The notes under the pieces are model-generated. The model was not told the origin of the DNA and made no database searches. It saw only the letters and a program-made list of their open reading frames with translations. A stretch of DNA of 21,020 nt, taken from the IMG/VR virus record IMGVR_UViG_3300009169_000121, positions 1-21,020 of that record. The stretch is one strand, 5' to 3'. Below, one piece after another: positions 1-21,020 of this stretch. The DNA comes from a virus. Within the stretch, counting starts at the first letter, position 1. Each line of letters opens with the position of its first letter. A program made the translations under genes and the position numbers.

Positions 1-62
1 CTAAATAGTAGGACTCTATGACTCTAGTCTCACTTACGAGGGCTGTGGAAATAAGGGTCCTG

Positions 63-72
63 TTCGCGCGAA
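63..72. other. CG-rich perfect palindrome TTCGCGCGAA (left copy)
   Basis: This 10-bp self-complementary sequence stands out in AT-rich DNA. The second copy is at 20949-20958 in the right inverted repeat. It sits next to the terminator hairpin and about 140 bp upstream of the small terminase gene, a region where cos or pac recognition sites often occur. Any role in packaging or end processing is inference. Confidence 0.5.
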
Positions 73-108
73 AAACCCCTCTATAGCTTTGGAGTCCTAG
101 AGGGGTTT
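73..108 (-). terminator. Terminator-like hairpin in the left inverted repeat, reading leftward
   Basis: An 11-bp perfect stem (73-83, AAACCCCTCTA, pairing with 98-108) surrounds a 14-nt loop. On the minus strand the stem runs into UUUUU followed by a CG-rich palindrome, so it suits termination of leftward transcription. No leftward gene lies inside the window, so here it would insulate against transcription leaving the module, or serve whatever lies to the left in a larger molecule. The loop also contains TAGCTTTG (84-91), which matches the Bacteroides -7 consensus TAnnTTTG, but no clear -33 element precedes it. Confidence 0.6.
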
Positions 109-123
109 ACATGAAACAACTAC

Positions 124-213
124 GTAACAACGAATCTCACGATTCCTTATATATATCCCGGTTCGCAAATCTGTTTTGTTTTCGGGGATAAATAAAATAA
201 ATGCTCCAAAAAT
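124..213 (+). promoter_or_regulatory. Leader upstream of the packaging operon
   Basis: This 90-base noncoding stretch lies between the inverted repeat and the first gene. It contains an imperfect hairpin: TATCCCG at 154-160 pairs with CGGGGATA at 183-190, with one bulged base and a 22-nt loop. A TA-rich tract at 149-156 and an 'aaataaaataaat' start-proximal leader follow the usual Bacteroidota pattern without a Shine-Dalgarno. The promoter for the late operon probably lies here or just outside, but I see no convincing -33/-7 pair. Confidence 0.35.
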
Positions 214-543
214 ATGTCCCTTAAAAAGATTATAACAGATTACTTAAAAGATAAAGACCTATACCATGAGTCTGATGAGATATTAGTGGATGAACTGGTC
301 TTTAATATAGACTTAGCAAAAGAGGCTAAAGAGGATATAAAGGCTAATGGGATAGAAGTTAATATAACTAGGGACCCAAAGAAAGAGCCATATTATATAA
401 AGAATAAGTCTATAGACATATATCAGCAGGCCCTTAAGAATCTACAGGGTCTATTTAGACAGTTAGCCCTGTCTCCAAGTGAACGTCAGAAACTAAAAAT
501 AGAGCTCTCCTCTAAAAAGGATGAGTTCGACGAGATATTTTAA
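214..543 (+). CDS. terS: Phage terminase small subunit (P27-like)
   Basis: This 109-aa protein would recognise phage DNA and recruit the large terminase to start packaging. Its pattern fits the P27-family small terminases: an N-terminal helical region (roughly residues 5-45), a central basic stretch with DPKKEPYYIKNKSI around residues 54-67, then a helix with LFRQLALSPSERQKL near residues 81-95. That LxLSPxxR-type C-terminal signature is typical of the family. It is the first gene of the operon, 3 bp before the next ATG and about 300 bp upstream of the large terminase, which is the expected order. The start has no Shine-Dalgarno; an internal ATG does not look better. Family assignment is by pattern recognition only. 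Confidence 0.85.
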   Translation: MSLKKIITDYLKDKDLYHESDEILVDELVFNIDLAKEAKEDIKANGIEVNITRDPKKEPYYIKNKSIDIYQQALKNLQGLFRQLALSPSERQKLKIELSSKKDEFDEIF

Positions 544-545
544 TT

Positions 546-767
546 ATGGAAAAGTCAGTAGAAACAATAGCGGATAAACCGATGTATACTAGGATTCCCA
601 CAGTAAGGCTTAGTATAGACAACTACTTAAGGGACCAGTTAATAGCTGAAGGAGTAGACCCAGATACTATAGTCTTCGAAACTGAAGAGCTTCCTAGAGA
701 TAGTAGATGTTGTAAAAAGATATTAGTAAAAGCCCATGGAACAACAACTGAAGAAGAGGGGTCTTAA
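546..767 (+). CDS. Hypothetical protein between the terminase subunits
   Basis: This 73-aa acidic protein is not recognised. It starts 3 bp after the small terminase stop (taattATG), so translation is probably coupled. Residues 15-35 contain a short segment (TRIPTVRLSIDNYLRDQLIA) that could form a strand followed by a helix. A Cys-Cys pair flanked by basic residues lies near residues 55-58. No membrane segment or signal peptide is seen. Small unknown proteins between terS and terL are common in phages and can be packaging accessories or HNH-like factors, but no HNH motif is visible here. The end of the gene overlaps the start of a 43-aa frame at 736. Confidence 0.65.
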   Translation: MEKSVETIADKPMYTRIPTVRLSIDNYLRDQLIAEGVDPDTIVFETEELPRDSRCCKKILVKAHGTTTEEEGS

Positions 768-867
768 TAAGCTCTATTATATGACTAAGGCTGCAGAGAG
801 TAAGAATATAGCCCATGCTATATTAATAGTTCACTTCGTAAGACACCTAGATAGATTATGCAATTAG
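736..867 (+). CDS. Small overlapping reading frame bridging to terL (43 aa)
   Basis: ATG at 736-738 lies inside the end of the 73-aa gene and the frame closes with TAG at 865-867, inside the start of the large terminase gene (ATG at 858). The 43-aa product begins MEQQLKKRGLNKLYYMTKAA. It is basic, with a likely helix (KNIAHAILIVHFVRHLDRL) towards its end. It fills the only gap between the two neighbours and overlaps both, by 32 and 10 bases, which is the geometry of a translation-coupled phage gene. Against it are the short length and the lack of any recognised family. It may be a real small packaging accessory or simply an open frame. Confidence 0.5.
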   Translation: MEQQLKKRGLNKLYYMTKAAESKNIAHAILIVHFVRHLDRLCN

Positions 868-2522
868 AAGAATATGTAAAGAGATGCTGGGACCTAGTAG
901 AGGAGTATATTACAGGAGTAACGAATGAAACTATAATAACTAATAAATGGGTTAAGCTCTCTGTAAAGAACTTCTTAAAAGACCTGAACAGAGAAGACCT
1001 CGAATATAGAACTGAAGCAGTAGATAGAGTCTTCAAGTTTTTCTATTTCATACGGATTAATAAATCCAATAGATATTCCAGGTTCGAACCACTTCCTTTC
1101 CAAGCTTTCATACTAGCGGCTCTGTTCGGGTTTTTTTATAAGAAGACAGGTAAGAGAAGATATAAGTATGTCTTTCTCTTTATGGCCCGAAAGAACGGTA
1201 AGAGCGTTTTTTCAGCAGCTCTGCAGCTATACTTCTTAGTCGCAGATGGAGTAGCAGACCCTCAGTCTTTACTATTAGCCTCTACAAGAGAACAGGCCTC
1301 TATATGTCTGGAATATGCTACAGGTATAATAAACAACTCTCCTGCTCTTTCTAAGCGACTGGAAGCTCAAAGATATAAAATCATATTTAGGGATAGAACT
1401 AAAGGAGGATTTAGTAAGACCTTAGCCTCTATAGCTCATAAGCTAGATGGATATTCTGCAAATGGAGCTATATTAGATGAGATACACAGCTACCCCGACG
1501 ACAAGCTTTTTAATGTTGTAAAGTCCTCGACCTTAGCTAGGGAGAATCCTATGCTCTTTCTTATATCTACGGCTGGATATAGTCTAACCTCTTTCTGCTA
1601 TAACTTTCTTCTATATTCTAAGAACGTTCTTAATGGAGATATAGTAGATGACACGCTATTTCCAATGCTATACTGTATAGATGACAATGACGATTATAAA
1701 GACCCTTCGGTATGGATTAAGGCTAATCCTGCTTTAGGAGAGATAAATCACTTAGACGACCTACTTAGCGAGTTTAATCAGAGTAAATACTCAAAGACCC
1801 AAATAGATAACTTTCTTACTAAACACTTAAACATATTTGTCGACCAGGAGAGAGCCTGGATTCCTAACGAAACCTTAACGAAGTCTATTCGAGACTTCGA
1901 TGAGAAGGAGCTATACGGTAAGGAATGCTATATAGGAGTGGATTTATCTTCAACGAGAGACCTAACAGCCCTAGTATGCTTAATTCCGAATCAGGATAAA
2001 TACTATGTTCTTCCTTATTTCTTCATGGCTAATAATGCAGAGAAGTTTTTAAGAAGTGGAGGAGTCAACTTAAAGACATGGATAGAAGAAGGATTCGTTA
2101 CTCTATGTCAGACTCCGACGGTGGATTACGATTTAATAGCTGAGAAGTTTAGGGAACTAAATGACAAGTTCGATATTCGACTATGTTCGTATGACCCTTA
2201 TAATATAGCTTCTATAATAAACAAGCTATATGAAATAGGTATACCAATGGGTCCTTTCGAACAGAGAGCTATTCGTTTTAATGAGCCTCTTAAGAAACTG
2301 GAAAAAGAGTTTTTCAATGAGAATATAATAATGAAAAGCCCAGTTATAAAATGGAACATAAACAACGCTATTTTACAAAGGGACCAAAACGGGAACATAA
2401 AAATGGATAAGAACCGCTCTCTCGATAGTATAGATGGAGCCGTAGCTTTAGGAATGGCGATGGGAGCTTATGAACAGACAAACAGGGGGACACTAATAAA
2501 ATCGAATCTTTGGAATAACTAA
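858..2522 (+). CDS. terL: Terminase large subunit (packaging ATPase and nuclease)
   Basis: This 554-aa protein is the DNA-packaging motor and headful or cos nuclease that docks on the portal. The N-terminal ATPase has a Walker A-type loop ARKNGKS (residues 110-116), a Walker B motif AILDEIH (204-210, with D207-E208) and a coupling motif STAG (237-240). The C-terminal RNase H-like nuclease shows the three expected acidic positions: D362 (GVDLSSTRDLTALV), D446 (CSYDPYN) and D526 (SIDGAVALGMA). Length and order of motifs fit Terminase_1-type large subunits of HK97-like siphoviruses. It overlaps the preceding 43-aa frame by 10 bases and sits 25 bases before the portal gene. No truncation or missing residue is seen. 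Confidence 0.97.
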   Translation: MQLEEYVKRCWDLVEEYITGVTNETIITNKWVKLSVKNFLKDLNREDLEYRTEAVDRVFKFFYFIRINKSNRYSRFEPLPFQAFILAALFGFFYKKTGKRRYKYVFLFMARKNGKSVFSAALQLYFLVADGVADPQSLLLASTREQASICLEYATGIINNSPALSKRLEAQRYKIIFRDRTKGGFSKTLASIAHKLDGYSANGAILDEIHSYPDDKLFNVVKSSTLARENPMLFLISTAGYSLTSFCYNFLLYSKNVLNGDIVDDTLFPMLYCIDDNDDYKDPSVWIKANPALGEINHLDDLLSEFNQSKYSKTQIDNFLTKHLNIFVDQERAWIPNETLTKSIRDFDEKELYGKECYIGVDLSSTRDLTALVCLIPNQDKYYVLPYFFMANNAEKFLRSGGVNLKTWIEEGFVTLCQTPTVDYDLIAEKFRELNDKFDIRLCSYDPYNIASIINKLYEIGIPMGPFEQRAIRFNEPLKKLEKEFFNENIIMKSPVIKWNINNAILQRDQNGNIKMDKNRSLDSIDGAVALGMAMGAYEQTNRGTLIKSNLWNN

Positions 2523-2547
2523 TATATAGTAAAATAACTACTTAAAG

Positions 2548-3858
2548 ATGTTCGAAAATATAAAAAGACAATTAAGTTATGTCTTCGGAGGAGGCTCAAG
2601 TCAGCCAAGTATGGTTTTAGGAACTAACGAAACATATATAGACCAGGTTTTGGACCCTTTACGTATGGGGAATAAAAGAAATACCTTCCAAAACTCTGAT
2701 GCTGAAAAGGTAGCTACATGTATGACGGCTATAAAGGTTTTAGGAGATACTATGGGGCGTCTTCCTATAAATGTATACCAAACGACAGACTCAGGAAACC
2801 AAGTAGATAAGTCAGATTATAGATATGACCTACTTCACTTTTCGCCAGATGGAATAATAACTTCCCAGGCTTTTTTCTCAGCGCTAGAATATAACAGGAA
2901 TCTTAAAGGAAACGCCTTCGCTAGAATACATAGAGACCGTATGTCTGGAGACGTTATATCTCTGGAGCTTATTCCTTCTAATTATGTCGGGGGATATAAA
3001 ATGGTCCGGGGACAACTATATTATATAGTTTACCTAAAGAAGGAAAACGGGAGCACAAAGGAGACCGTTATTAACTCCCAAGATATGCTTCACTTTAAGA
3101 TGGTGACGAAAAATGGGATATGGGGGATAAACCCTATAGAAGCTCAACGTCTTAATCTCTCAACTTTATGGAAAGCTAAGAATACAGTAGATGTTTTTTA
3201 TGAAAACAATGCTTTCTCCCCTCTAGTCTTAAAATCGGTTATTCCTGACCAGGCTTTCCAAAAGCAGTTCTCAGAAGCAATGGAGGGATTCAAGAATAAT
3301 AATGCTGGAGTTCCTAATGCAGGGACCCTTATAAAACTTCCACCCTTCACAGAAATACAGCAGCTCACAATGGACCCTGTAGATTCTAAGTTTATAGAAT
3401 CTCAAAAGTTCGATACAACTCAAATAGCTGCTTTCTATGGAGTTCCTCCAGATATGGTGGGGGTTTACGAATACTCCAAATATAATAACGTAGAGCAGGC
3501 TCAGCTAAACTTCAAGGTTAATACGGTAGCTTCTATAGCTCGTATGTATAGACAAGAGCTGGAAATGAAACTCTTAACCTCAGAAGAGAGAAAGGCTGGA
3601 AAGAGTATAGAGTTCGTTACTCAGGCCCTAGTAGAAACGGATATTGTAACAAGAAGCAACTATTATAGGACTATGCAGGACTTAGGAGTTATGACGCCTA
3701 ACCAGATAGCTCTATTAGAAGGACTTCCTACTTTCCCTGAAGGAGATAAACACTATATGTCAAGTCAAACTCTTCCTATAGAGGATAGGGACTCTAATAA
3801 AGCGGCTCCTCCTGAACCCGAACAAGGGGATGAAGAGCAAGAAAATATAAACGAATAA
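2548..3858 (+). CDS. Portal protein (HK97 type)
   Basis: This 436-aa protein would form the dodecameric ring at one capsid vertex through which DNA enters and leaves and to which the tail joins. The pattern matches the HK97-like portal family: an early segment with VATCMTAIKVLGDTMGRLPI (about residues 55-75), a central region with GIWGINPIEAQRL (about 190-202), and FYGVPPDMVGVYEYSKYNNVEQ (about 295-317). The last motif is very typical of this family. The C-terminus is acidic and low in complexity (PPEPEQGDEEQENINE), likely flexible. It lies between terL and the prohead protease, the canonical position. Confidence 0.95.
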   Translation: MFENIKRQLSYVFGGGSSQPSMVLGTNETYIDQVLDPLRMGNKRNTFQNSDAEKVATCMTAIKVLGDTMGRLPINVYQTTDSGNQVDKSDYRYDLLHFSPDGIITSQAFFSALEYNRNLKGNAFARIHRDRMSGDVISLELIPSNYVGGYKMVRGQLYYIVYLKKENGSTKETVINSQDMLHFKMVTKNGIWGINPIEAQRLNLSTLWKAKNTVDVFYENNAFSPLVLKSVIPDQAFQKQFSEAMEGFKNNNAGVPNAGTLIKLPPFTEIQQLTMDPVDSKFIESQKFDTTQIAAFYGVPPDMVGVYEYSKYNNVEQAQLNFKVNTVASIARMYRQELEMKLLTSEERKAGKSIEFVTQALVETDIVTRSNYYRTMQDLGVMTPNQIALLEGLPTFPEGDKHYMSSQTLPIEDRDSNKAAPPEPEQGDEEQENINE

Positions 3859-3897
3859 ATAGATATATGCCTCTAATATATCTCTATATTTAAGATT

Positions 3898-4716
3898 ATG
3901 CAAAATAAATCTAATAACATGAAATATAATAAGATTCAAGAGAGGGTCTACAATAGTAAGGACCTTCAAATAAGAGCGGTAGAGGATGAAAGCAAAGGAA
4001 TGGTTCTAGAAGGATATGCCGCCTTATATAATGTTCGTTCTCAATTACTATTTAATCAGTTCTATGAAACAATCGAGAGAGGAGCTTTCGATAAAGTTCT
4101 GAAGAACAAAGAGTTAGACGTGGTTCTTAACTTTAACCATAACAATTCCCAGATAATGGGAAGAACGGTAAATGGAACCCTTACTCTAAGTTCAGACGAT
4201 ACTGGTTTATTCTTTAGAGCGACACTCCCTGACACAAGCTATGCGAAAGACGTTTATAGCTTAGTAAAAAGAGGCGATTTATTTCAAAACTCCTTCGCCT
4301 TTCTCCCTTCTAAAAGAGGTTATAGGTCTGATAAAGCCGAAGACGGAACGGACCTATATGTTGTAACAGAAGTTCAGACGCTTCGTGACGTGGCCGTAGT
4401 TACTTTTCCTGCGTATAGCGCAACTAGAGTAAAAGCTCGTCAACTAGTAGACCCCGAAACAGGTGAAGAAATACCTGCTGTAGAGGTAGCTGAAGAAGCT
4501 CTTAAAGAAGTTATGGATTTAGTCTCTCAACTTCAAGAAAAACTTATGGCCCTTAAGCCAGAGGAAGAACCTGAAGAAGAGCCTGAAGAGGAACCTACAG
4601 AAGAACCCGCTCCTGAAGAGGAACCGGGGGAGGAAGAAGAAGAGGATGCAAATAGAAAGCTGACCGAAATATATAAAAAGCGAATGAAAATCGTTAAACT
4701 CAAATATGTAAAATAA
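3898..4716 (+). CDS. Prohead maturation protease (HK97/U35 type) with acidic tail
   Basis: This 272-aa serine protease would cleave capsid precursors during head maturation. The domain spans roughly residues 14-180: VLEGYAALYNV (36-46), the histidine motif LNFNHNNSQIMGRT with H81, the nucleophile motif GDLFQNSFAF with S132, and the closing strand VQTLRDVAVVTFPAYSAT (159-176), consistent with the HK97 protease fold. Residues 200-250 add a predicted helix followed by EEEP-type repeats, then a strongly basic end (KKRMKIVKLKYVK). That tail is not needed for catalysis and may act as a scaffold-like tether. ATG at 3898 is used; M8 at 3919 is an alternative start with an equally A/T-rich leader. Confidence 0.92.
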   Translation: MQNKSNNMKYNKIQERVYNSKDLQIRAVEDESKGMVLEGYAALYNVRSQLLFNQFYETIERGAFDKVLKNKELDVVLNFNHNNSQIMGRTVNGTLTLSSDDTGLFFRATLPDTSYAKDVYSLVKRGDLFQNSFAFLPSKRGYRSDKAEDGTDLYVVTEVQTLRDVAVVTFPAYSATRVKARQLVDPETGEEIPAVEVAEEALKEVMDLVSQLQEKLMALKPEEEPEEEPEEEPTEEPAPEEEPGEEEEEDANRKLTEIYKKRMKIVKLKYVK

Positions 4717-4727
4717 ATAAATCAAAA

Positions 4728-5822
4728 ATGAAAACACTCAAAGACTTAAAAGCTGAAAGGTCCCAGTTCATAACCAGGATGGAAGAAATCACTGGCCAAG
4801 ATATGACCGATAAGCTACGTTCAGAATGGGACGGACTTAATGAAAAAGTAGAAGGTCTCTCTAAAGACATAGAAAGATTAGAGAAGCAGGAAGAACTAAA
4901 CAAGAGAATGGTTAATTCAAATACCGTAGAGGAAAAGGAAGAATCCAAATCACTCGGAGCTCAGTTCAGAGACTTCTTAATCGACGCTGTCGAAAGGGGT
5001 GGAACTTCTAAGTTTTCCCTAAGGGCTGACCCTATTCTTTCAAGCACAACTACAGCAGTTATTAATAAAGAAGTTAATAACTCAGTAGATATTTTAGTTT
5101 CTCCAGGTGAAGCTTTTTTAAGAGAGCTAGGAGTTACTTTCTACCCAGGACTAGTAGGAAACTTCGTTATTCCTGCAATGGCTGAAGATTTAGCAACCTT
5201 CCCAGGTGAAGATGCAAGCGCAGCCTCTGCAGATATGACTCCAGAAGCTCTTACTTTAGCAGCTAGAAGGCTTACTCACTTCCAGGGCGTTACAAGAGAA
5301 ACCTTAGCACAGACAAATCCTGCTATTTACAATGGAATCGTTCAGAATCTAGTAAACGGTTTTTGGAAAGCTGTAGCAAACGACCTCTTCGACACTCTAG
5401 AAGCTGATGCTGCTACTCAGATAGGCGGTTTCGGAGGTGGACCTGTAGTATACAGAGATTTAGTTAACATGGAAGCTTCCATAGGAGGTCTTTCTGTAAA
5501 TACTCCTGCATACGTTACAACTCCTGCAGTTAAGGCTTACTTAAAGCAAACTGTAGAATCCACGTATGGAAAGAACATATGGATGGATGAGGAGATTAAT
5601 GGCTATAAGGCTTATGGCGTTCCCGCTGCTAATACTGACAAGATTTACTTCGGTGACTGGTCAAGAACAGCAGTAGGTTCATGGGGGAATCTAGAAATAA
5701 TCGTAGACCCTTATACTAAAGCTAAACAGGGTGAAATCGTTCTTACTATTGTAGGTCTAGTAGATACTGGATGTTTCAATAAGAGAGCTTTCGCTATTAT
5801 GACTGATGCTTCAGTAGTTTAA
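4728..5822 (+). CDS. Major capsid protein (HK97 fold)
   Basis: This 364-aa protein forms the icosahedral shell. Residues 1-65 are charged and heptad-like (LKAERSQFITRMEEITGQ, then LNEKVEGLSKDIERLEKQEE), matching the coiled-coil delta/scaffold region of HK97-type capsid proteins that is normally removed by the prohead protease encoded just upstream. The rest shows the Phage_capsid pattern: FVIPAMAEDLATFPGE, ALTLAARRLTHFQGVTRETL and the late GEIVLTIVGLVDTGCFNKRAFA. Cleavage probably falls between residues 65 and 105, but the exact site cannot be read from the sequence. The gene is 12 bp after the protease and followed by a terminator-like hairpin, as expected for a highly expressed gene. Confidence 0.95.
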   Translation: MKTLKDLKAERSQFITRMEEITGQDMTDKLRSEWDGLNEKVEGLSKDIERLEKQEELNKRMVNSNTVEEKEESKSLGAQFRDFLIDAVERGGTSKFSLRADPILSSTTTAVINKEVNNSVDILVSPGEAFLRELGVTFYPGLVGNFVIPAMAEDLATFPGEDASAASADMTPEALTLAARRLTHFQGVTRETLAQTNPAIYNGIVQNLVNGFWKAVANDLFDTLEADAATQIGGFGGGPVVYRDLVNMEASIGGLSVNTPAYVTTPAVKAYLKQTVESTYGKNIWMDEEINGYKAYGVPAANTDKIYFGDWSRTAVGSWGNLEIIVDPYTKAKQGEIVLTIVGLVDTGCFNKRAFAIMTDASVV

Positions 5823-5832
5823 TCTATTTTGG

Positions 5833-5860
5833 AAGGGGGGCTAATAACTCCCCTTTCTTA
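5833..5860 (+). terminator. Terminator-like hairpin after the capsid gene
   Basis: AAGGGGGG (5833-5840) pairs with CTCCCCTT (5848-5855), eight pairs including one G-U, around a 7-nt loop, followed by TCTTA. The U tract is short, so partial termination is more likely than a full stop. It starts 11 bases after the capsid stop codon and 21 bases before the next start. Confidence 0.6.
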
Positions 5861-5875
5861 AAATAACTTCTAGAA

Positions 5876-6406
5876 ATGGCTATTCCAGTTAAAACAAAAA
5901 GCTCGTGGCCTGTTTCTCTTTCTGAAGCTAAAAGACACTTAAGGGTGGATGAGGACTTTCATGATGATGATGACTATATCTCAGTCTTAATTCAAGCAGC
6001 AACAGAAAAAGCAGAAAGGTATATCGGAAAAGACATAGCAGAAACTACTTCTGTTCAGGCTCTATATGACTTCCTAGGGAGCTATTTATGGATTCCGGAA
6101 GGAAACTTCCGTTCTTTAGATTATGCTGTAACAGATACTTCTGTTTATGCAACTATATCTAAAACAGATATAAGATATAATGGAGTTTATATAGAGTTCG
6201 ATACTTCTTATGATGCAGACCCGTTAACTATTTCATATTCAACTGGTTATACAGAAGGGGAATGTCCCCCCTCTATTAAACAAGCCGTTTTAATAAAAAT
6301 AGCTGACCTCTTCGATATAGACAGGCAAAGCTATACAGAGGGAAGTATAAAAGAGAGCAAAGCCTTCGAATACCTTTTGGATTCGTTTCGCTTAGTAGAG
6401 TTTTAA
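5876..6406 (+). CDS. Head-tail connector (gp6-like / phiE125 gp8-like)
   Basis: This 176-aa protein likely forms the first adaptor ring beneath the portal. The N-terminus shows the family pattern PVSLSEAKRHLRVDEDFHDDDDYISVLIQAATEKAERYIGK (about residues 12-52), a helical region with an acidic cluster, followed by beta-rich sequence (residues 75-135) and a closing helix (PPSIKQAVLIKIADLFDIDR, about 137-156). Position straight after the capsid gene is standard for gp6-type connectors. The next gene starts 3 bases after its stop. Confidence 0.85.
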   Translation: MAIPVKTKSSWPVSLSEAKRHLRVDEDFHDDDDYISVLIQAATEKAERYIGKDIAETTSVQALYDFLGSYLWIPEGNFRSLDYAVTDTSVYATISKTDIRYNGVYIEFDTSYDADPLTISYSTGYTEGECPPSIKQAVLIKIADLFDIDRQSYTEGSIKESKAFEYLLDSFRLVEF

Positions 6407-6409
6407 GAT

Positions 6410-6739
6410 ATGATAACCAGTAAGTTAAGCAAACAGATAACTATAGAGAAGGAATCAACTTCTACTAATAGAGTGGGAACGCCTCAGGAGAGTTATACTT
6501 TTCTAAAGGATACTTATGCGGATATTTATATTCAAGCCGTTACTACTCAATACTCAACCACTGGTTCGCTTCCTTTCTCCCAAACAGTCTTTACAATAAG
6601 ATATGATGAAGACGTGGATTACAAATGTAGATTAATCTATAATAATAACTATTTCAAAATAGAAAGTATAGAGGAGATAGGCCGTAAACACTGGATGAGA
6701 ATAAGATGCATAGTCTGGGAAAGAGCAACAAACTATTAA
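6410..6739 (+). CDS. Head-tail adaptor / joining protein (SPP1 gp16-like)
   Basis: This 109-aa beta-rich protein resembles the phage head-tail joining family, which seals the connector after DNA packaging. Typical elements are the early strand KLSKQITIEKESTSTNRVGTP (residues 4-24), the aromatic-polar centre (YADIYIQAVTTQYSTTGS), and the ending YNNNYFKIESIEEIGRKHW, where a residue of the 'Y.I..i...dr..w' type closes the barrel. The gene is spaced 3 bases from the previous gene and 1 base from the next, so the four connector genes form a coupled block. Confidence 0.8.
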   Translation: MITSKLSKQITIEKESTSTNRVGTPQESYTFLKDTYADIYIQAVTTQYSTTGSLPFSQTVFTIRYDEDVDYKCRLIYNNNYFKIESIEEIGRKHWMRIRCIVWERATNY

Positions 6740-6740
6740 G

Positions 6741-7588: not shown

Positions 7589-7622
7589 TATATAGAATAT
7601 AACCAAAAATAATAATAGAAAA

Positions 7623-8098: not shown

Positions 8099-8392
8099 AT
8101 GAACTATTTAACTTACAAAGGAGTCGAGTTTCCGATTAGAGTTTCTTACTATGCTCTAAAACAGTTCCAGTTAGAAACAGGAAAAGGTATAGAGACCATA
8201 GACCAAGAAATAGGTAACCTCGAGATTCTACTCTATTATGCTCTAATAGCAGGTTCAAAGGCTGAAGATAAGCCTATGAAACTGAAGAAAGAGGATATGG
8301 AGTGCATGCTAGACGAATGCTTAGCGGATTTTAATAAAATCCTTATGGCTTCGTTTCCAGATTCTAAAGGAGGAAACGATAAAAAAAAATAA
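8099..8392 (+). CDS. Tail assembly chaperone, short product (lambda gpG-like)
   Basis: This 97-aa helical protein would coat the tape measure during tail assembly. It starts MNYLTYKGVEFPIRVSYYALKQFQLETGK, a pattern common among gpG-like chaperones, and ends DKKK followed by TAA at 8390-8392. The last three codons are nine consecutive A (8381-8389). The heptamer A_AAA_AAA at 8383-8389 is in the right frame for -1 slippage, so a fraction of ribosomes should continue into the downstream frame to give a longer product. Order between tail tube and tape measure supports the assignment. Confidence 0.88.
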   Translation: MNYLTYKGVEFPIRVSYYALKQFQLETGKGIETIDQEIGNLEILLYYALIAGSKAEDKPMKLKKEDMECMLDECLADFNKILMASFPDSKGGNDKKK

Positions 8393-10855: not shown

Positions 10856-10856
10856 T

Positions 10857-13154: not shown

Positions 13155-13168
13155 AAAATATGTAAGAT

Positions 13169-14224
13169 ATGTCATACGACGTAAGTATATATTACTCAAG
13201 GGTTAAAACAGCCTATTACGATTCAGTTGAGGGGGGTAGTTCAGTAGCTAGTGGAGCCTCTCCTTATTCCTCAGCTACAGGTGGTGGCGGAGGTGGTTCT
13301 GTTTCTGGGGTAGTTAGAACAACGGGGGACCAAATAGCTTCCGGCATAAAGATATGGGATTCTAGCGCTATATTCAATAATGATGTTTCTATTTTAGGAG
13401 GATTAGATGCTTCTTCATGGGCAACTTTCGGAATGGATGTTTCTATAAAAGGAGACTTATATGTAGAAGGAGATATAAATGGAGGGGACTTAACTTTAGT
13501 AAATCTTCATGTAACAAATGATGTTTCTATAGATGGCAATCTATATCTAAATGGGAATCTTTTAGGATTTACTTTAGGAGAGTTAAATGATGTTTCAGTT
13601 TCTGGGGTTACTCTAAATCAAGTTCTTTCATGGGATGGAACATACTGGGTTCCTGCTGATAGTTCTACAGCAGGTTCTGCTACATATACTTATGTGGATG
13701 GCTCTCTAAATGAGCGAGATGTTTCAATAGCATGGCTAGTAGGATATAATGACGAACAGGATACTTCTATAGCATGGCTAAGGACATATATGTATACTAA
13801 GGCTGAGGTAGATGATATGTTCGTTCCAAGAGATGCTTCTATAATAAGAATAGATGGTTCTCTTAATTCTCTTTTTAATAAGAATGTCTCCCAAGATGCT
13901 TCAATAGTTTCTTTAAGAGCTACAAATACTTCCCAAGATGCTTCAATAGTAGTTATAAGAGCTAGATTAGATGCTTCCTTAATCACAGACCTTAATGGTT
14001 TACAGGATGTAAATATAACGTCCCTTAATGATAATGACTTTCTTCTATTTAATACTGATACTTCTAAATGGGAGAATCAGCCTTCGGAAGAGTTAATAGA
14101 GTTCGGGTCAAAAGATTCTTCAGCAACAGGGCTTCCAGGACAAATGGCTTATGATGCTTCTTATTTTTATCTATGCACAAGCACTAATGTATGGATGAGA
14201 TTTTTAGGAGAAAATAATTACTAA
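13169..14224 (+). CDS. Tail fibre protein with D-x-S-I repeats
   Basis: This 351-aa structural protein has no recognised catalytic domain. After a flexible glycine-rich segment (residues 38-46) comes a beta-repeat region in which NDVSI or MDVSI alternates with GDLYVEGDI and GNLYLNGNL-type strands (about 70-130), and then a helical region with YVDGSLNERDVSIAWL, QDTSIAWL, RDASI and QDASI repeats (about 175-270). The end, GLPGQMAYDASYFYLCTSTNVWMRF, is common in phage tail fibre C-termini. Nine D-x-S-I motifs occur. It overlaps the following LamG-like gene in a TAATG junction (14222-14226), so the pair is probably translated together and forms one fibre. Confidence 0.75.
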   Translation: MSYDVSIYYSRVKTAYYDSVEGGSSVASGASPYSSATGGGGGGSVSGVVRTTGDQIASGIKIWDSSAIFNNDVSILGGLDASSWATFGMDVSIKGDLYVEGDINGGDLTLVNLHVTNDVSIDGNLYLNGNLLGFTLGELNDVSVSGVTLNQVLSWDGTYWVPADSSTAGSATYTYVDGSLNERDVSIAWLVGYNDEQDTSIAWLRTYMYTKAEVDDMFVPRDASIIRIDGSLNSLFNKNVSQDASIVSLRATNTSQDASIVVIRARLDASLITDLNGLQDVNITSLNDNDFLLFNTDTSKWENQPSEELIEFGSKDSSATGLPGQMAYDASYFYLCTSTNVWMRFLGENNY

Positions 14225-14982
14225 TGTATAGACCTATTAATAGAAATGGAAACCCTTTATTAAGGAATGGAAGTCCTTTAATGGGTAACTCTGCTAAATA
14301 CTCCAGAAAAGGATTATTGGCAAGATGGGATTTTAATGACACTCTAATAGATTCCTATAATAATTATGTTCTTACTTTAGCTGACGGCTCTATAATATAC
14401 TCAACTAATAGAAAGGAAGGGACAAAAAGTCTATATTTCGATGGAAGCACTTATTTTAATGTCCCCACCGAACTATGGGGTATAGGTGGTCCAGGACCAC
14501 CTAACTCCCCTTTTACTATTAACTGGTGGATGAACGTTCCTTCTACAAGTCCCTCTACAGGATATGTCAATACTGCATGGTCTATTTCCTACGCCCCTGT
14601 TGGAACTGATAATTCTAGAATACTGGCAAATAATGTCCTTTTTAATAGAATGAACCAGTTCTACGATAGTAACAGAACAGCAGTTCTTAATGGAACTCCG
14701 TCTGCTAATACATGGACTATGTATACAGCAAGATTCGATGGAACTACAATGAAGTTTCAATCAGATAATGGGGGTTATTCTGGAACTGCTTCAGTTCCTG
14801 GAAACTATTATACTATAACTCCTCTTTACTTTTGGTTAGGAAGAGACTGGTATAGTCTTATAACTCACCCTGACCCTGATAATGCAGCTCCTGGTCTTAT
14901 GATAGATGTGATGTATATCTATGATAGATGGATTACTGATGAAGAAGTAGGCCTTTTATGGAACTCTGGAAGGGGAGGATAA
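14224..14982 (+). CDS. LamG/concanavalin-like receptor-binding protein (copy 1)
   Basis: This 252-aa protein is a single jelly-roll lectin-like domain. Diagnostic elements are GLLARWDFNDTLIDSYNNY (about residues 30-48), YFDGSTYFNVPTE (about 75-87), FTINWWMNVPS (about 98-108), and the closing MIDVMYIYDRWITDEEVGLLWN (about 224-245), which match LamG-type domains ('f.dG.l.ideV.iynralt..Ei..ly'). It likely binds a host surface glycan at the tail tip. It overlaps the stop of the D-x-S-I fibre gene, and has a paralogue at 17465 and a distant one in the C-terminal half of the 18987 gene. Confidence 0.8.
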   Translation: MYRPINRNGNPLLRNGSPLMGNSAKYSRKGLLARWDFNDTLIDSYNNYVLTLADGSIIYSTNRKEGTKSLYFDGSTYFNVPTELWGIGGPGPPNSPFTINWWMNVPSTSPSTGYVNTAWSISYAPVGTDNSRILANNVLFNRMNQFYDSNRTAVLNGTPSANTWTMYTARFDGTTMKFQSDNGGYSGTASVPGNYYTITPLYFWLGRDWYSLITHPDPDNAAPGLMIDVMYIYDRWITDEEVGLLWNSGRGG

Positions 14983-15003
14983 ATAGGAGAAACTCCCTAT
15001 TTC
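14981..15003 (+). terminator. Weak terminator-like hairpin
   Basis: AAATAGGAG (14981-14989) pairs with CTCCCTATTT with one bulged C, a loop of three A, and is followed by TCTA without a U tract. It begins at the stop codon of the first LamG gene. It may be an mRNA stabiliser rather than a terminator. Confidence 0.35.
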
Positions 15004-15038
15004 TAAATGAAGATATATAATCTAAATAACTATTTCTT

Positions 15039-17417
15039 ATGTCACAAATCCAAGGAAGAGTTTTCGATTCTTCAATATACGGATGGGTAGCCGACGTGGC
15101 CTCCTCTCTTTCAGCTTCAGGATATGCAACTATAACTTATGTGGACTCCTCGCTCTCTGCAAGGGACACTTCAATAGACTTTCTAAAAGCCTATAATGCT
15201 ATTCAAGATGCAAGTATAGCAGCTTTAGCTAGCGATGATGTAACGCAAGCCTATGTCGATGGGTCTTTAGGAGCTAGAGATACTTCTATAGCCTGGCTCA
15301 AATCATATGATACAATTCAGGACACTTCAATAGGACTTAAAGCTGATAAAACTTATGTAGATGGCTCTTTATCCCTTAAAGCAGATAAGACTTATGTCGA
15401 TTCTTCTCTTTCTTCAATGGACGCTTCAATAGCTTATATAGCTTCTAATTATGTAGAGGAAGTTATAAATGACCCGGGTATAGGCGCGAGCTGGTCTCTT
15501 ATAAACTCAAGTGAAGGCCCTTCTGTCACTATAAAGGGGTTTCAAACCATTTTTCCGTTACAAACCTCAAATACAGGGCCTTATTTATCTACTCAGGTTT
15601 CAACAACATGGATAAATAATCTGGATTCCTCTATAAATGGAGCATATGCTGCTTCAGCTTCTTATGATACTATTCAGGATGTTTCAATAGCTAATGCTCT
15701 GACTAAGAATACGGCTCAGGATGTTTCAATAGCTTTCTTAAATACCTATAGAGGGGTTCAGGATACTTCTATTTCTACACTAGAGAGTAGGGTCTCAGCT
15801 AACGATGTAAGCATAGCTTTCTTAAATACTTATAGAGTAGTTCAGGATACTTCTATTTCTACTCTTCAAACAGGAGTCTCGGCCAATGACACTTCTATAG
15901 CGTGGCTAGATTCTTATAGGGAGGTTCAAGATACTTCAATAGCAGAGAAACTCCCATTTCAAATAGCCAGAGACACTTATTTCACAACGGGTTTCGTTAA
16001 TAGAACAGATTCTTCTTTGGCTTTCGATAGTTCTACTAGAGTCTTTACTATTTCAACAGGAAGTTCTTATTCTATTTATAATGAAAGTATAAAGTCTACT
16101 ATTTCTGCGGATGCTTCTACTCAACTCTCTGATGATGTTGGAATACACTATATCTGGTATGACTCTTCAGCCTCCCTACAACATGCAATTACAGCATGGA
16201 GTATAGTTTCAAATAATGCTCCAGTAGCAACAGTCTATTGGGATGGTTCAAAAGGAACTCTAAACGAAGAAAGACACTCAGCCGGTAGAAACTTAGAATG
16301 GCACGAATGGGCTCACGACACTATAGGAACTAGATATGAGAGCGGATTAGCAGGAACTTTCCAAGATGGGTCTACCTCTTTTACAGCCGGATATATTCAT
16401 GACGAAGATATAGACTTCTATATTTCTACCCAGACTTTATTAAGACCATGGTATAGAAAGACAGGTGGATTAGAAATGACTTTCGATAGTTCCACTCTCC
16501 CATATGCTGCTAAAGTTATAGGAGGAGTTCTACAATATGATAATGCTGGAACTCTAACAAACGTTACAAATAACTATTATATCTGCAACTGGGTATATGC
16601 GGAGACTAATATGGAATACCCTATATTCTTCGTAGTAGGCCAGGCTCAATATAACAAACTTTCAGATGCTCTATTAGACCCTGCTCCTACTATTCCTAAT
16701 ATAATAAGCCCAGAATATAAACTATTATATAGAACAGTATGGCAGAATAACAGTGGAACCCCAGATTATATTCAGAATCAGGACTTAAGATTACAGACAA
16801 GTTTACCCGGCGCAGGAACTTCAACTGTTTCTGCTGCTTCTGTAACGTTTAGCCCATATGAAACTATAGAAGCTACAAATGTTCAAGCAGCTATTCAGGA
16901 AGTAGTAAATGAGTTTACTACAAAGACTTATGTAGATTCTTCTTTAGGAGCTAGAGACGCTTCTATAGCATGGTTAAATGCTTATAGAATAATTCAAGAT
17001 GCTTCAATAGCTTCAATAGCTGGAGTGGATAAAACTTATGTAGATTCTTCTCTAGGATTTAGAGACGTTTCAATAGCTTTCTTAAATACCTATAGAGGAG
17101 TTCAGGACACTTCAATAGCGTTAAAAGCAAACCTAAATACTGCTTTTACTGAAGTCTCCACAGCTTATGTAGTTCTTTCTACTGATAATAATAAGATTAT
17201 AAAATGTGATGCTTCCTTAGTAGTTACTTTCCCAGATAGCTTAACAACAGGATTCCAATGCACAGTCCTTAATGCTTCAACAGGATATGTAAGGCTGGAT
17301 GCTTCAACTCTTAGAACAACAGATAGCTCAACTCAATTAAAGAATCTATATGCAGGGGCTTCAGCAGTTCACTATGGCTCTGGAATCTGGTATGCGTGGG
17401 GCAACTTAAAAGGTTAA
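15039..17417 (+). CDS. Large tail fibre protein with 14-residue D-x-S-I repeats
   Basis: This 792-aa protein carries three repeat blocks. D-x-S-I motifs occur at D43, 57, 81, 95 and 128, then at D214, 228, 242, 256, 270, 284 and 298 (seven copies spaced exactly 14 residues, two heptads), and at D640, 654, 676 and 690. The spacing suits a trimeric coiled-coil shaft. Between blocks two and three, residues 305-625 form a globular insert with a tail fibre pattern (IHYIWYDSSASLQHAI, NAPVATVYWDGSKG, HEWAHDTIGTRYESG). 'IEATNVQAAIQEV' near 607-619 is a common fibre linker. The C-terminus (703-792) is a beta-rich tip. No enzymatic motif is recognised. It is probably the main shaft of a second receptor-binding fibre, paired with the following LamG protein. 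Confidence 0.78.
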   Translation: MSQIQGRVFDSSIYGWVADVASSLSASGYATITYVDSSLSARDTSIDFLKAYNAIQDASIAALASDDVTQAYVDGSLGARDTSIAWLKSYDTIQDTSIGLKADKTYVDGSLSLKADKTYVDSSLSSMDASIAYIASNYVEEVINDPGIGASWSLINSSEGPSVTIKGFQTIFPLQTSNTGPYLSTQVSTTWINNLDSSINGAYAASASYDTIQDVSIANALTKNTAQDVSIAFLNTYRGVQDTSISTLESRVSANDVSIAFLNTYRVVQDTSISTLQTGVSANDTSIAWLDSYREVQDTSIAEKLPFQIARDTYFTTGFVNRTDSSLAFDSSTRVFTISTGSSYSIYNESIKSTISADASTQLSDDVGIHYIWYDSSASLQHAITAWSIVSNNAPVATVYWDGSKGTLNEERHSAGRNLEWHEWAHDTIGTRYESGLAGTFQDGSTSFTAGYIHDEDIDFYISTQTLLRPWYRKTGGLEMTFDSSTLPYAAKVIGGVLQYDNAGTLTNVTNNYYICNWVYAETNMEYPIFFVVGQAQYNKLSDALLDPAPTIPNIISPEYKLLYRTVWQNNSGTPDYIQNQDLRLQTSLPGAGTSTVSAASVTFSPYETIEATNVQAAIQEVVNEFTTKTYVDSSLGARDASIAWLNAYRIIQDASIASIAGVDKTYVDSSLGFRDVSIAFLNTYRGVQDTSIALKANLNTAFTEVSTAYVVLSTDNNKIIKCDASLVVTFPDSLTTGFQCTVLNASTGYVRLDASTLRTTDSSTQLKNLYAGASAVHYGSGIWYAWGNLKG
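15723..17116 (+). repeat. Near-identical DNA repeats inside the fibre gene
   Basis: A unit starting gtttcaatagctttctta occurs at 15723 and again at 17067, and in diverged form at 15807 (gtaagcatagctttctta). Each continues for about 45-55 bases with few differences and encodes DVSIAFLNTYR..QDTSI. Such repeats allow homologous shuffling or loss of shaft modules. Confidence 0.8.
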
Positions 17418-17440
17418 AATACGTTAATTATTAAACCTTT
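17409..17440 (+). terminator. Possible hairpin after the large fibre gene
   Basis: AAAGGTTAA (17409-17417) can pair with TTAAACCTTT (17431-17440) with one bulged A and a 13-nt loop. The stop codon is in the left arm. No U tract follows, the DNA downstream being A-rich, so a terminator role is doubtful. Confidence 0.3.
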
Positions 17441-17464
17441 ATAAAAAAAGACTATATAAAAAAT

Positions 17465-18208
17465 ATGATAATCTTAAGACATGGTATATTAGAGCAGGAA
17501 ATACAGGTAGCAACCCCGCCGACCCCGTCATACCCGACTGATGGACTTTTGGCGAGATACGATTTTAATGATACTCTTAATGATACTTATGGTAGTTTCA
17601 ATGGATGGGAGTCTCAAGCAACCCCGGCAGAATGGTCTTATGGGGAGTCAGGAGTTATAAATAAGGACTTTAAGACAAATGTAACAACAGGGTGGTCGTC
17701 TGGTGGAGCTCAGCCAAAAAAATGCTTAAAAAATGTAACAGATGCAAGCCTTTATGGTATGGTTAACGGAACTGGAAAGGAATGGGCCGTTTCTTTTTGG
17801 GCAAAGATTACAACCGCCGGGATGACGTTAGGATATGGAGTTACATGGAATGATAGCCCTTCAACAGAAAAAATAAAAGTAGGATGGTATAATCCAGGCA
17901 CACCAAGACTAATAGTTTATGGCGCCTCCGGAGAAATAATAGGATATAATAATGACTATAGGGATAGTAGTTGGCATAATTATGTTCTTAATATGGATGC
18001 AACAAATATAAAACTTTATGTTGACACAGCAGAAGTAGCTTCGGGCTCTCGAGTTAATCTAACAGGCGCGGATATATGTGGAATAGGGGCAAATGCTGTA
18101 GCAACAGACCAGATTCTTATGGGCGAAATCGATTTAGTTTATTTCTATAATAAGGCAATAAGCACTGGGGATATAACTCAATTATATAATGGGGGAAGTG
18201 GAATATAA
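17465..18208 (+). CDS. LamG/concanavalin-like receptor-binding protein (copy 2)
   Basis: This 247-aa protein begins with a short, proline-rich linker (ATPPTPSYPT, residues 16-25), then the lectin-like domain: GLLARYDFNDTLNDTYGSF (27-45), EWAVSFWAKIT, WHNYVLNMDATNIKLYVDTAEVASG, and the closing GEIDLVYFYNKAISTGDITQLYNGG. It shares its opening with the copy at 14224 (GLLAR-DFNDTL-D-Y) but the remainder is diverged, as expected for a fast-evolving receptor-binding module. The linker and parts of the domain use GC-rich codons (ccg, gcc, acg) seen less in neighbours. It follows the large fibre gene, repeating the fibre-then-LamG order of 13169-14982. Confidence 0.78.
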   Translation: MIILRHGILEQEIQVATPPTPSYPTDGLLARYDFNDTLNDTYGSFNGWESQATPAEWSYGESGVINKDFKTNVTTGWSSGGAQPKKCLKNVTDASLYGMVNGTGKEWAVSFWAKITTAGMTLGYGVTWNDSPSTEKIKVGWYNPGTPRLIVYGASGEIIGYNNDYRDSSWHNYVLNMDATNIKLYVDTAEVASGSRVNLTGADICGIGANAVATDQILMGEIDLVYFYNKAISTGDITQLYNGGSGI

Positions 18209-18220
18209 AAAAATAAAAAA

Positions 18221-18973
18221 ATGGAAAGAAAAAAAGTTATTCTATGCGGATATAACTGGTCAGGATGTAAAGCTCTAGAACTCTTATTAGAAGAGGGTCA
18301 TGATATATTCGTATACACTCATGAAAATCCAGACCATATAAACTCCTTAAAAAGCCTATGTGAAAAAAGAGGGGTTCCCTATTCTCTGGAGAAGATTAGT
18401 ATGGGGAATCTTCCGTTTATTCCTGATATAATATGTTCAATATACTATTCCTATATTATACCTGACGATGTGATAAAATCTGCTGAAGGAAAGGCTTTTA
18501 ATCTTCACCCTTCTCTTCTTCCTAAATATAAGGGATGTTCTAGTTTAACATGGGCTATGATAGAGGGGGAGAAGTTCGTTGGCTATTCTTTTCACTATTT
18601 AACTCCAGATATAGATGGCGGGAATATAATACTTCGGGATTCAATAAAAGTAGAGGACTTCGATACTCAAATAACACTTTATTATAGAGTTATGTTCGAG
18701 GCCCTAAAAGACTTTCAAAAAGCTTTTAATCATGTTCTTAATGAGTATAAAGGAAAAAAACAGGAAACTGGAGGTAGCTATAATAAAAGAGGCTGTCCTT
18801 ATGATGGAAATATAGACCCTACATGGGGCGATGAAAAAAAGGAAAGATTTATAAGAGCTATGATATATCCTCCTCTTAAAGGGGCTAGTTATTTAGGAGA
18901 AGAAATAGGAAGTTATGAAAGAATGAAAAAGCTAGATGAAATAATGCAGGGCTTAACAGCTGACTTAATATAA
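18221..18973 (+). CDS. Formyltransferase (sugar N-formyltransferase-like)
   Basis: This 250-aa protein has the formyl-transferase fold that uses N10-formyltetrahydrofolate. The catalytic set is intact: N94 and H96 in FNLHPSLLPKYKG and D132 in TPDIDGGNIIL. The opening VILCGYNWSGCKALELLLEEGH is the Rossmann-like strand-loop-helix. The segment YNKRGCPYDGNIDPTW then ERFIRAMIYPPLKGA (about residues 187-222) resembles sugar N-formyltransferases such as those of dTDP-amino-sugar and O-antigen pathways. The C-terminal OB domain of methionyl-tRNA formyltransferase (usual total about 310 aa) is absent. It sits between tail-fibre genes, 12 bp after a LamG gene. Likely use: formylating an amino sugar of the host surface or of phage proteins. 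Substrate is unknown. Confidence 0.85.
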   Translation: MERKKVILCGYNWSGCKALELLLEEGHDIFVYTHENPDHINSLKSLCEKRGVPYSLEKISMGNLPFIPDIICSIYYSYIIPDDVIKSAEGKAFNLHPSLLPKYKGCSSLTWAMIEGEKFVGYSFHYLTPDIDGGNIILRDSIKVEDFDTQITLYYRVMFEALKDFQKAFNHVLNEYKGKKQETGGSYNKRGCPYDGNIDPTWGDEKKERFIRAMIYPPLKGASYLGEEIGSYERMKKLDEIMQGLTADLI

Positions 18974-18986
18974 AAGAAATGAAAAT

Positions 18987-20312
18987 ATGGGGCTTCTTCC
19001 TGTAGGCATAAACAATAGAATAGTGGAATGGAGGGCAAAGGATAAGATAGTTAATGTCTTTCTTAATGATGCTTCAGGCTCCGTAACTTCTATAGCTGAC
19101 TTAAGCGCTTATTTCTATGCAAAGAAGTTTCCTATTTCTAGTTCAGCAGATTTAGATATTTCAATAGGATATTATAGTAAGGACCTGGATAAGAAAATGT
19201 TCTGCTTCCACCTATATCCTTTTATTACAGATATATCTATTGGAGATTACTTATATGAGATTCTTATTACTGACACTGCTGGATTAAGAATAACCATTGT
19301 TCAAGATAGATTTTCTCTGCTTCAAACAGTTTTCGAAGGATATACTGCTGGAAACTCTATTAACCCTTCAACTTATTCATTTACTAATTATGACTCCTCT
19401 ATGATATTAACAATAGAGGGTAGAACAGAGGAGTGGAATCTATATACTCCAGACTGGATTACAGCCAGTAGAACTTCAGGAACATATGGGACTTATGAAG
19501 TGGTTCTTACAGCTAATTCAGATGTAAGCGTTCCATATGCAGATGTTTCTATAGTCTTTAACAATGAGACTATGGTCATGGATACTTCATATGGCTATTA
19601 TAATCTCTCCCTAGATTCATGGTGGAAGTTCGAGAATAATCTATTGGATTCTTCTTCTGGAACGTATAATCTAGAAGCTTCAGTAGGATATGCATACCCT
19701 CCAATCCCTACAGACTACTATTACTATGATGTAGCTTCTGTAGACTCCTCATGTATATTCTTAATTAATGATAAGGGAGCAGTTATACAAAATATAGTTC
19801 TTAGCACTAATAATACTACAAATCTATATAATAGAGAGCCTGGATGGTCTAATTCAGTATGGTTCAAAGCTCCTCACCTTCCTGTAAGTTATAGGGGTGG
19901 AGCTATGGTCTTCTCTAACCATGGAAATGGAGAGGTGGGAATAGATATAGGTATAGATAGTGATGGAAAGGTTTTCGCAAGAAGAATAGAGGTATGGGGG
20001 GGAGACTGGTGGTGGGGATGGACAAGTGATAGTTCAGTAGTAGGAGACGACACATGGCATAATATAATCCATACCTATAATTCTATTACAAAAGTCTCTA
20101 AGGTATATCTAGATGGAGCTCTTACGTATACTGCTGACCCAGTAACAGACTATTTAATAACTGGATTCGATTCTACATATTTAGGAGCAGAATGGATAGA
20201 CCAGGGATTTATTATAAGAAATGGCTTCTGGGGATACTTAGATGAGGTTAAGATTTTTGGATACCCTCTACCTGCTTCACAGGTTAGCCAAATATATAAT
20301 CAGGGAATATAA
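18987..20312 (+). CDS. BppU-like / BACON-like / LamG-like tail-tip protein
   Basis: This 441-aa protein has three apparent parts. Residues 8-116 are a beta-rich domain (NDASGSVTSIADLSAYFYAKKFPI, GDYLYEILITDTAGL, VQDRFSL) resembling the N-terminal domain of BppU baseplate proteins and paralogous to the next gene. Residues 128-200 look BACON-like, with EEWNLYTPDWITASRTSGTYGTYEVVLTANSD and YADVSIVFNNE carrying the usual W and Gly pattern. Residues 207-441 are LamG-like: SWWKFENNLLDSSSGTYNLE, WHNIIHTYNSITKVSKVYLDG, WGYLDEVKIFGYPLPASQVSQIYNQG. The fold order would anchor the protein to the baseplate and display two carbohydrate-binding modules. No catalytic residues are recognised. Confidence 0.72.
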   Translation: MGLLPVGINNRIVEWRAKDKIVNVFLNDASGSVTSIADLSAYFYAKKFPISSSADLDISIGYYSKDLDKKMFCFHLYPFITDISIGDYLYEILITDTAGLRITIVQDRFSLLQTVFEGYTAGNSINPSTYSFTNYDSSMILTIEGRTEEWNLYTPDWITASRTSGTYGTYEVVLTANSDVSVPYADVSIVFNNETMVMDTSYGYYNLSLDSWWKFENNLLDSSSGTYNLEASVGYAYPPIPTDYYYYDVASVDSSCIFLINDKGAVIQNIVLSTNNTTNLYNREPGWSNSVWFKAPHLPVSYRGGAMVFSNHGNGEVGIDIGIDSDGKVFARRIEVWGGDWWWGWTSDSSVVGDDTWHNIIHTYNSITKVSKVYLDGALTYTADPVTDYLITGFDSTYLGAEWIDQGFIIRNGFWGYLDEVKIFGYPLPASQVSQIYNQGI

Positions 20313-20325
20313 ATAAATAGAGTAT

Positions 20326-20670
20326 ATGGGAACTTATAACTTATACAACAATAAACTAGAAGGCTTTCAGGGGAACACCAAGGACGTTCTAGTAGTCGTT
20401 TACGATGCTTCTGGAAATCTGATGGATATAACAGATTATGACGCTTCCCTCTATATGAAGAAATACCCTATTAGACCGGGAAACCCAATAGATGTAGCTA
20501 AGTCTTATATTACAAAGGATGCTTCTGCAGGTTCTTTCCTATTCAAAATGTCTTCAGAAGACCTGGATATAGCAGCAGGCGATTATGTTTATGAGGTCAT
20601 AATAGATAATACAGCTCAAAGACACACTGTCGTTCAGGACAGATTTAACTTAAAAGACTCAATAATATAA
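20326..20670 (+). CDS. Small BppU-like baseplate protein (single domain)
   Basis: This 114-aa protein is the stand-alone equivalent of residues 8-116 of the previous gene product. Shared positions include the DASG start, KKYPI against KKFPI, GDYVYEVII against GDYLYEILI and VQDRFNL against VQDRFSL. The sequence is otherwise diverged, so the duplication is old. It has no fused lectin domain, so it may be a structural filler or a competitor subunit in the baseplate ring. It lies 13 bases downstream of its paralogue. Confidence 0.72.
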   Translation: MGTYNLYNNKLEGFQGNTKDVLVVVYDASGNLMDITDYDASLYMKKYPIRPGNPIDVAKSYITKDASAGSFLFKMSSEDLDIAAGDYVYEVIIDNTAQRHTVVQDRFNLKDSII

Positions 20671-20676
20671 AGTAAG

Positions 20677-20901
20677 ATGAAGAGTATGCTAGATAAGATA
20701 TACAACTTTTCGTTTCCTGTAGGAGGCGGAACACTAGGAGCTATAACCAAAGTTCCCGAGGTCACAAGTTCAACGATTACTCATAGCGGAATAGTTTTAG
20801 AAACTATATTAGTAGCAGCAATAGGAGCCTTAACTGGATATATCGTTAAGAAACTTTTAGATTACATATGGCCGAAGTTCTGTAGGCTATGTAAGAAGTA
20901 G
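20677..20901 (+). CDS. Small one-helix membrane protein, possible holin
   Basis: This 74-aa protein has one hydrophobic segment (about residues 38-57, ETILVAAIGALTGYIV) preceded by a Gly/Thr/Ser-rich region and followed by a basic, aromatic end (KKLLDYIWPKFCRLCKK). A short late-operon protein with one membrane span suits a holin or a spanin-like helper, but no endolysin accompanies it, so that role is tentative. A CxxC pair (CRLC) lies at the C-terminus. Its TAG stop (20899-20901) lies within the right inverted repeat, which begins at 20898. Confidence 0.6.
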   Translation: MKSMLDKIYNFSFPVGGGTLGAITKVPEVTSSTITHSGIVLETILVAAIGALTGYIVKKLLDYIWPKFCRLCKK

Positions 20902-20912
20902 TTGTTTCATGT

Positions 20913-20950
20913 AAACCCCTCTAGGACTCCAAAGCTATAGAGGGGTTTTT
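20913..20950 (+). terminator. Terminator at the end of the late operon (in the right inverted repeat)
   Basis: AAACCCCTCTA (20913-20923) pairs with TAGAGGGGTTT (20938-20948), eleven pairs, loop of 14 nt, with the T run TTTTT at 20946-20950. It lies 12 bases after the last stop codon and would end rightward transcription of the whole module. Confidence 0.8.
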
Positions 20951-20958
20951 CGCGCGAA
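20949..20958. other. CG-rich perfect palindrome (right copy)
   Basis: This is the second copy of TTCGCGCGAA, in the right inverted repeat next to the terminator. Being self-complementary, it reads identically on both strands at both ends of the molecule. Confidence 0.5.
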
Positions 20959-21020
20959 CAGGACCCTTATTTCCACAGCCCTCGTAAGTGAGACTAGAGT
21001 CATAGAGTCCTACTATTTAG

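Follow-up and report, generated by a model that had tools for sequence, protein, structure and literature searches.

Does a stretch of tailed-phage DNA whose two ends are exact inverted copies of each other represent a linear virus with inverted terminal repeats, or a larger genome that was cut at a repeat? The window analyzed here is the entire IMG/VR record IMGVR_UViG_3300009169_000121 (21,020 bp). Comparison of the window sequence with itself showed that positions 20898-21020 (right arm, minus strand) are the exact reverse complement of positions 1-123 (left arm, plus strand), with pairing that ends at base 124. Because the window's second-best inverted repeat is an imperfect pair of 34 nt, the 123-bp repeat lies far above chance. 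A preliminary description had drawn attention to this perfect repeat and to the late genes between its arms, and had set out three readings: one arm of a larger genome, with the repeat parting late and early halves, the halves of a hairpin telomere, or a stand-alone linear element. The evidence below leads us to conclude that the record is a fragment rather than a linear virus bounded by inverted terminal repeats of 123 bp, and that the window probably corresponds to the late segment (L) of a tailed-phage genome of ~28 kb, arranged as L (20.8 kb), a repeat (X), an early segment (S; 6.7 kb), and an inverted copy of X.

By PHROG and Pfam searches, the genes between the arms encode packaging, head, and tail functions, all on the plus strand. 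The late segment opens with the small terminase subunit TerS (214..543; phrog_83, E=2e-13), followed by the large terminase subunit TerL (858..2522; phrog_9, E=3e-144), the portal protein (2548..3858; phrog_12, E=4e-77), the head maturation protease (3898..4716; phrog_80, E=1e-58), an HK97-fold major capsid protein (4728..5822; phrog_617, E=7e-22), the head-tail adaptor (5876..6406; phrog_442, E=2e-20), the tape measure protein (8864..10855; phrog_20660, E=2e-12), and a tail and adhesion block (10857..20312). The view that only late genes lie between the arms is thus upheld, and no replication gene, integrase, or regulator was recognized there. The tail block includes three Laminin_G_3 genes (14224-14982, 17465-18208, and 18987-20312), among which sits a gene with a formyltransferase domain (PF00551; 18221-18973), and the tail genes at 13169-17417 contain many diverged internal repeats that encode D-(A/T/V)-S-I stretches. 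Next to this block is a tail-end gene (20326..20670) with homologs in contigs G007, G026, and G027, which served as a marker for the distal end of the late segment. The last gene (20677..20901) encodes a 74-aa membrane-type protein and has its stop codon inside the repeat arm; it matched nothing in Pfam or PHROG, and our suggestion that it might be a holin is a guess. The first 8 kb of the window had no match among isolated phages at the DNA level, and the best TerL match among them is 34.5% identical. Bacterial genomes gave only distant TerL matches, and we therefore make no host call.

When 40 bases of the arm were used to scan the viral collection, one other contig was found, IMGVR_UViG_3300027721_000059 (G001; 28,158 bp). 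G001 includes the entire window with two mismatches (window positions 8304 and 15080) and extends 7,136 bp beyond the right arm. The two records may be two assemblies of one sample and are therefore not clearly independent. In G001, the window's repeat (arms A; 1-125/20900-21024) does not end the molecule on the right: the arm runs on through a 202-bp linker into a second, different arm (B) and then into the early segment. Arms B (21227-21327/28058-28158) form a perfect 101-bp inverted repeat, the second arm of which is the right end of the contig, and they bound the 6.7-kb segment S. Encoded in S are two adjacent HNH nucleases (HNH1 and HNH2), a late-sigma-like protein, a family 2 glycosyltransferase, and a protein of the DUF6395 family; among its genes we recognized neither a recombinase nor a replicase. 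HNH1 matches phrog_144 (E=3e-24), and HNH2 directly follows it at G001 25005-25484 (L003:11023-11502). Used as bait, the S proteins DUF6395 and HNH2 retrieved known contigs plus one weak HNH2 match only. The G+C content is 37.3% in the late segment and 37.2% in the early segment, as compared with 48.4% in the 428-bp X region. The passage of G001 through the right arm into an early segment with a repeat of its own supports the first of the preliminary readings, that the window belongs as an arm to a larger genome whose late and early halves are parted by a repeat, with the assembly broken at the repeat.

The length of 123 bp seems to reflect the assembly. Within the window the match is exact over this length, as had been described; the repeat itself is longer, since arm A measures at least 125 bp in G001 (at least 2 bp more than in the window), where it is bounded by G001's own start. 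In G027 (IMGVR_UViG_3300009168_000039), a circular relative from a sibling dataset, the first and last 123 bp are exact direct repeats, as is normal for circular contigs built by a de Bruijn assembler with that overlap. A further contig, G013 (from 3300009169), reaches into the corresponding repeat of its species for exactly 123 bp and stops there. The recurrence of this length in G027, G013, and the window is most simply explained if 123 is the overlap length of the assembler. The k-mer series of the source pipeline presumably ran from 23 to 123; we found no confirmation of a k=123 setting in the literature, and the value rests on these three contigs. Both ends of the late segment would meet the same repeat, and a short-read assembly with k=123 would cut the contig there. 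The repeat overhangs at contig ends are unequal (125, 101, 103, 99, and 82 bp), as read-limited extension may explain. Short-read assemblers thus cut such genomes at the repeat and produce records that mimic linear viruses with inverted terminal repeats.

Relatives were collected with a TerL profile search, which gave 47 loci. Two further species carry perfect repeats: G014 (28,497 bp; TerL 47% identical), with segments of 22.1 and 5.1 kb and repeats of 103 bp (1-103/22163-22265) and 99 bp (23162-23260/28399-28497), and G006 (18,230 bp; TerL 67% identical), in which an 82-bp repeat flanks the early segment. In both G001 and G014, each of the two unique regions is bounded on both sides by inverted copies. 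Within each of the three genomes the arms are 100% identical, and between species they are unalignable, as expected if recombination keeps the copies alike. The early segments of all three share the HNH1-HNH2 pair. HNH1 is present in five of the five genomes compared (G001, G014, G006, G012, and G027), and HNH2 in all three repeat-bearing contigs and in neither of the two complete repeat-less relatives (G012 and G027); HNH2 had no match among isolated phages and may have a connection with the repeat. The TerL tree groups the three repeat-bearing species in one clade (support 92/97), which also takes in contigs too short or incomplete to judge for repeats.

The two repeat-less relatives resemble the window's phage in their related late genes, an HNH1 homolog, and a similar genome size; unlike G001, they are complete by terminal overlap and lack both the inverted repeat and HNH2. 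The TerL of G012 (~32.2 kb) is ~50% identical to that of the window, and the TerL of G027 (33,563-bp record; 33,440-bp circle) is 44% identical. In both, late and early blocks fill the circle. The early block of G027 measures 8.4 kb and has the same direction as its late block, and the X positions are the counterparts of its two late/early junctions. G027 has no recognizable polymerase either, so the missing polymerase in S does not indicate that a part is absent. Another contig that spans L, G026 (TerL 47% identical), has no repeat at its ends, an observation that weighs against the plan.

Several features of the collected loci are recorded here as separate observations. In G014, the repeat at 1-103 and 22163-22265 includes a ribosome-binding site, a start codon, and the first six codons (MQFQRG), and these starts belong to two different genes that read into both ends of L. 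The early segment of G014 encodes a DnaD-like helicase loader (L061:13096-13920, minus strand; phrog_2514), for which no counterpart was recognized in G001 or G006. The distant locus L037 (TerL 38%) carries an imperfect 548-bp inverted duplication, 83% identical (1-547 and 3440-3985), that flanks its TerS-TerL genes. L039:1-400 contains a local near-perfect inverted repeat of 69 bp (98.6%), with a TerS similarity on the strand opposite to TerL, and L007:532-1251 is a 239-aa gene, homing endonuclease-like by eye, between TerS and TerL.

These observations would be brought together if arms A and B were the two edges of one repeat. X would then be a control region of ~428 bp, with the 125-bp arm A as its L-side edge, the 101-bp arm B as its S-side edge, and the 202-bp linker as its core. 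Copy 1 of X corresponds to G001 20900-21327 (428 bp), where A, linker, and B are continuous and where the right arm of the window is the start of the repeat; copy 2 is seen at its two edges, and the window's left arm would be its TerS-side edge, clipped by assembly. The viral collection searched contains no contig that spans the second copy, and we therefore only infer the full core there. With X counted twice, the predicted map measures 28,360 bp (~28.4 kb) for the window's phage and ~29.4 kb for G014, both close to the sizes of the complete repeat-less relatives. The genome may be circular within the cell, or the virion may contain it as a linear molecule whose ends fall inside X.

The arms themselves leave room for a different arrangement, with two independent inverted-repeat pairs, A round L and B round S, joined by unlike linkers and perhaps accompanied by further segments; L and S could then invert separately to give four forms, as HSV-1 does. 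In sequence, arm A is indeed unlike arm B, and the contigs stop at the far side of B, where another linker or segment could follow. We nevertheless regard this arrangement as unlikely in view of what is seen on the TerS side of L. G013 and G014 are of the same species (one mismatch over 7,174 bp), and G013 reaches 20 bp further on the TerS side, into bases that match exactly, in inverted orientation, the linker on the far side of the other arm. Likewise, the core motif GTGAGT6+, which in ~748 kb of related contigs occurs at the X position only, lies next to the tail end of L in G001 and next to the TerS end in L006 and G009. Two copies of a single X account for both repeat pairs at once, and the resulting sizes agree with those of the complete relatives. 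We also considered that, at the contig ends, arm B might adjoin arm A directly; this was rejected for the species of G014, as G013 continues with the linker.

All the data are short-read metagenome contigs, and fold-back chimeras, a known artefact of some amplification methods, could have made inverted ends; we consider such an origin highly improbable, however, because two species are each represented by two assemblies with the same arms, a different dataset yielded a third species with this plan, and both large contigs contain two unlike perfect repeats whose map positions correspond. A true linear element that depends on another replicon and has inverted terminal repeats of 123 bp would show exact inverted repeats at the two ends of the record, as observed, but the continuation of the right arm into linker and early genes in G001, that is, into unique DNA, and a repeat longer than the assembly length of 123 leave this option of the preliminary description with very little probability. 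Its companion proposal, a linear phage of N15 type with the arms as halves of hairpin telomeres, could draw on a distant similarity (~30%) of the major capsid protein to those of the telomere phages VP882 and phiHAP-1. Here too the sequence goes on beyond the arm, into unique DNA, and no match to the telomere resolvase domain PF16684 was found in G001, G014, or G006, so that we give hairpin telomeres next to no credence. The preferred reading remains that of one repeat X in two inverted copies.

X carries several sequence features of its own. When positions 60-125 of the left arm were folded as DNA (-10.5 kcal/mol, z -2.83), a hairpin was predicted at 73..108 on the plus strand (AAACCCCTCTA...TAGAGGGGTTT; repeat family D17), and the same hairpin lies in the right arm at 20913..20948 on the minus strand, just 3' of the last late gene. 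The hairpin is terminator-like and near-symmetric, and so would act on both strands. Next to it, each arm of the window has an unstranded CGCGCG site (left, 65..70; right, 20951..20956). CGCGCG occurs four times in G001 (67, 20953, 21294, and 28086), once per repeat arm, and once in G014, inside X. Arm A and inverted arm B have six 8-mers in common, a number reached in 1 of 5,000 shuffles, and X is thus weakly symmetric about its core. The core contains a conserved poly-T/CGGCG element, and GGGCTATCATTT followed by CACCC is common to the X of G006 and that of G014. Scanning the viral collection with the X-core pattern matched four further contigs, none of which has the compared proteins or the repeat, and the core is absent from the region upstream of TerS in the repeat-less G012. 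Rfam and tRNA scans of X and S gave nothing convincing.

The position and neighbors of the core suggest that X might act as a packaging (cos-like) site, an origin, or both. The phrog_144 family matched by HNH1 is, we assume, the family of HK97 gp74-type HNH proteins. The trait of HK97-like cos phages, TerS and TerL together with a gp74-like HNH gene, is present here, with the HNH gene in S. Because the core adjoins TerS, HNH1 matches phrog_144, and gp74 promotes cos cleavage in HK97 (PMC9410871), we propose the X core as a candidate cos site, a lead drawn from sequence comparison. Several contigs end near the core, as either natural ends or assembly breaks would give.

The relative orientation of the two segments differs among the species. 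L and S have the same direction in G001, as the two blocks do in repeat-less G027; they converge on X in G014 and diverge from X in G006. On a circular map with inverted X, G014 and G006 represent one isomer and G001 the other. These differences, seen between species only, are compatible with flipping; fixed inversions between species, or an arbitrary assembler path, would give the same picture. Homologous recombination between the inverted X copies, by host or unrecognized phage functions, would flip S relative to L and would also keep the copies identical. Neither PF00589 (integrase) nor PF00239 (resolvase) had a match in G001, G014, or G006; control genomes matched both domains, and G027, a positive control, matched PF00239 (serine recombinase). 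Because no integrase or resolvase domain was found, homologous recombination is taken as the default agent. Recombination between inverted repeats is stimulated by double rolling circle replication in yeast (PMC3147054). It is conceivable, if on the whole doubtful, that the inverted X copies form a flip system that drives replication and packaging, in which theta replication would pass into double rolling circles and yield concatemers without a phage polymerase, the X core would be the packaging site, and the late block would occur in both orientations with respect to the early one.

Genome isomers formed through inverted repeats are textbook knowledge for plastids, the 2-micron plasmid, and herpes simplex virus. 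Among phages, the invertible segments of Mu (G) and P1 (C) are ~3-kb tail-fibre switches run by a serine invertase. They share with the present phage a segment bounded by inverted repeats, whereas here the bounded segment comprises all late genes, with no invertase detected; a limited search of the open literature turned up no tailed phage with its whole late block so bounded. The yeast 2-micron plasmid has repeats of similar length (599 bp, inverted; Flp/FRT) that part two unique regions, as well as a route to concatemers by double rolling circle without a dedicated replicase. It differs in that G001, G014, and G006 have no integrase- or resolvase-type domain and no identified recombination site, and in that these are phages, not plasmids. 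Plastid DNA likewise consists of two unequal unique regions parted by two identical inverted repeats, with differing relative orientation and copies identical within a genome, as in this phage clade; the phage repeat is ~0.43-1.1 kb rather than tens of kb, and the orientation differences here are between species. HSV-1 (ab-UL-b'a'c'-US-ca) is also a dsDNA virus packaged by a terminase, with a long and a short unique segment, each with inverted arms of unrelated sequence, and a conserved element at the joint. The arms of the phage are far shorter than those of HSV-1, and the phage is known from contig sequence. If the flipping proposed here is true, it would provide, in a small phage, a counterpart of herpesvirus genome isomerisation and a setting in which to study recombination between inverted repeats, the identity of the copies, and packaging together.
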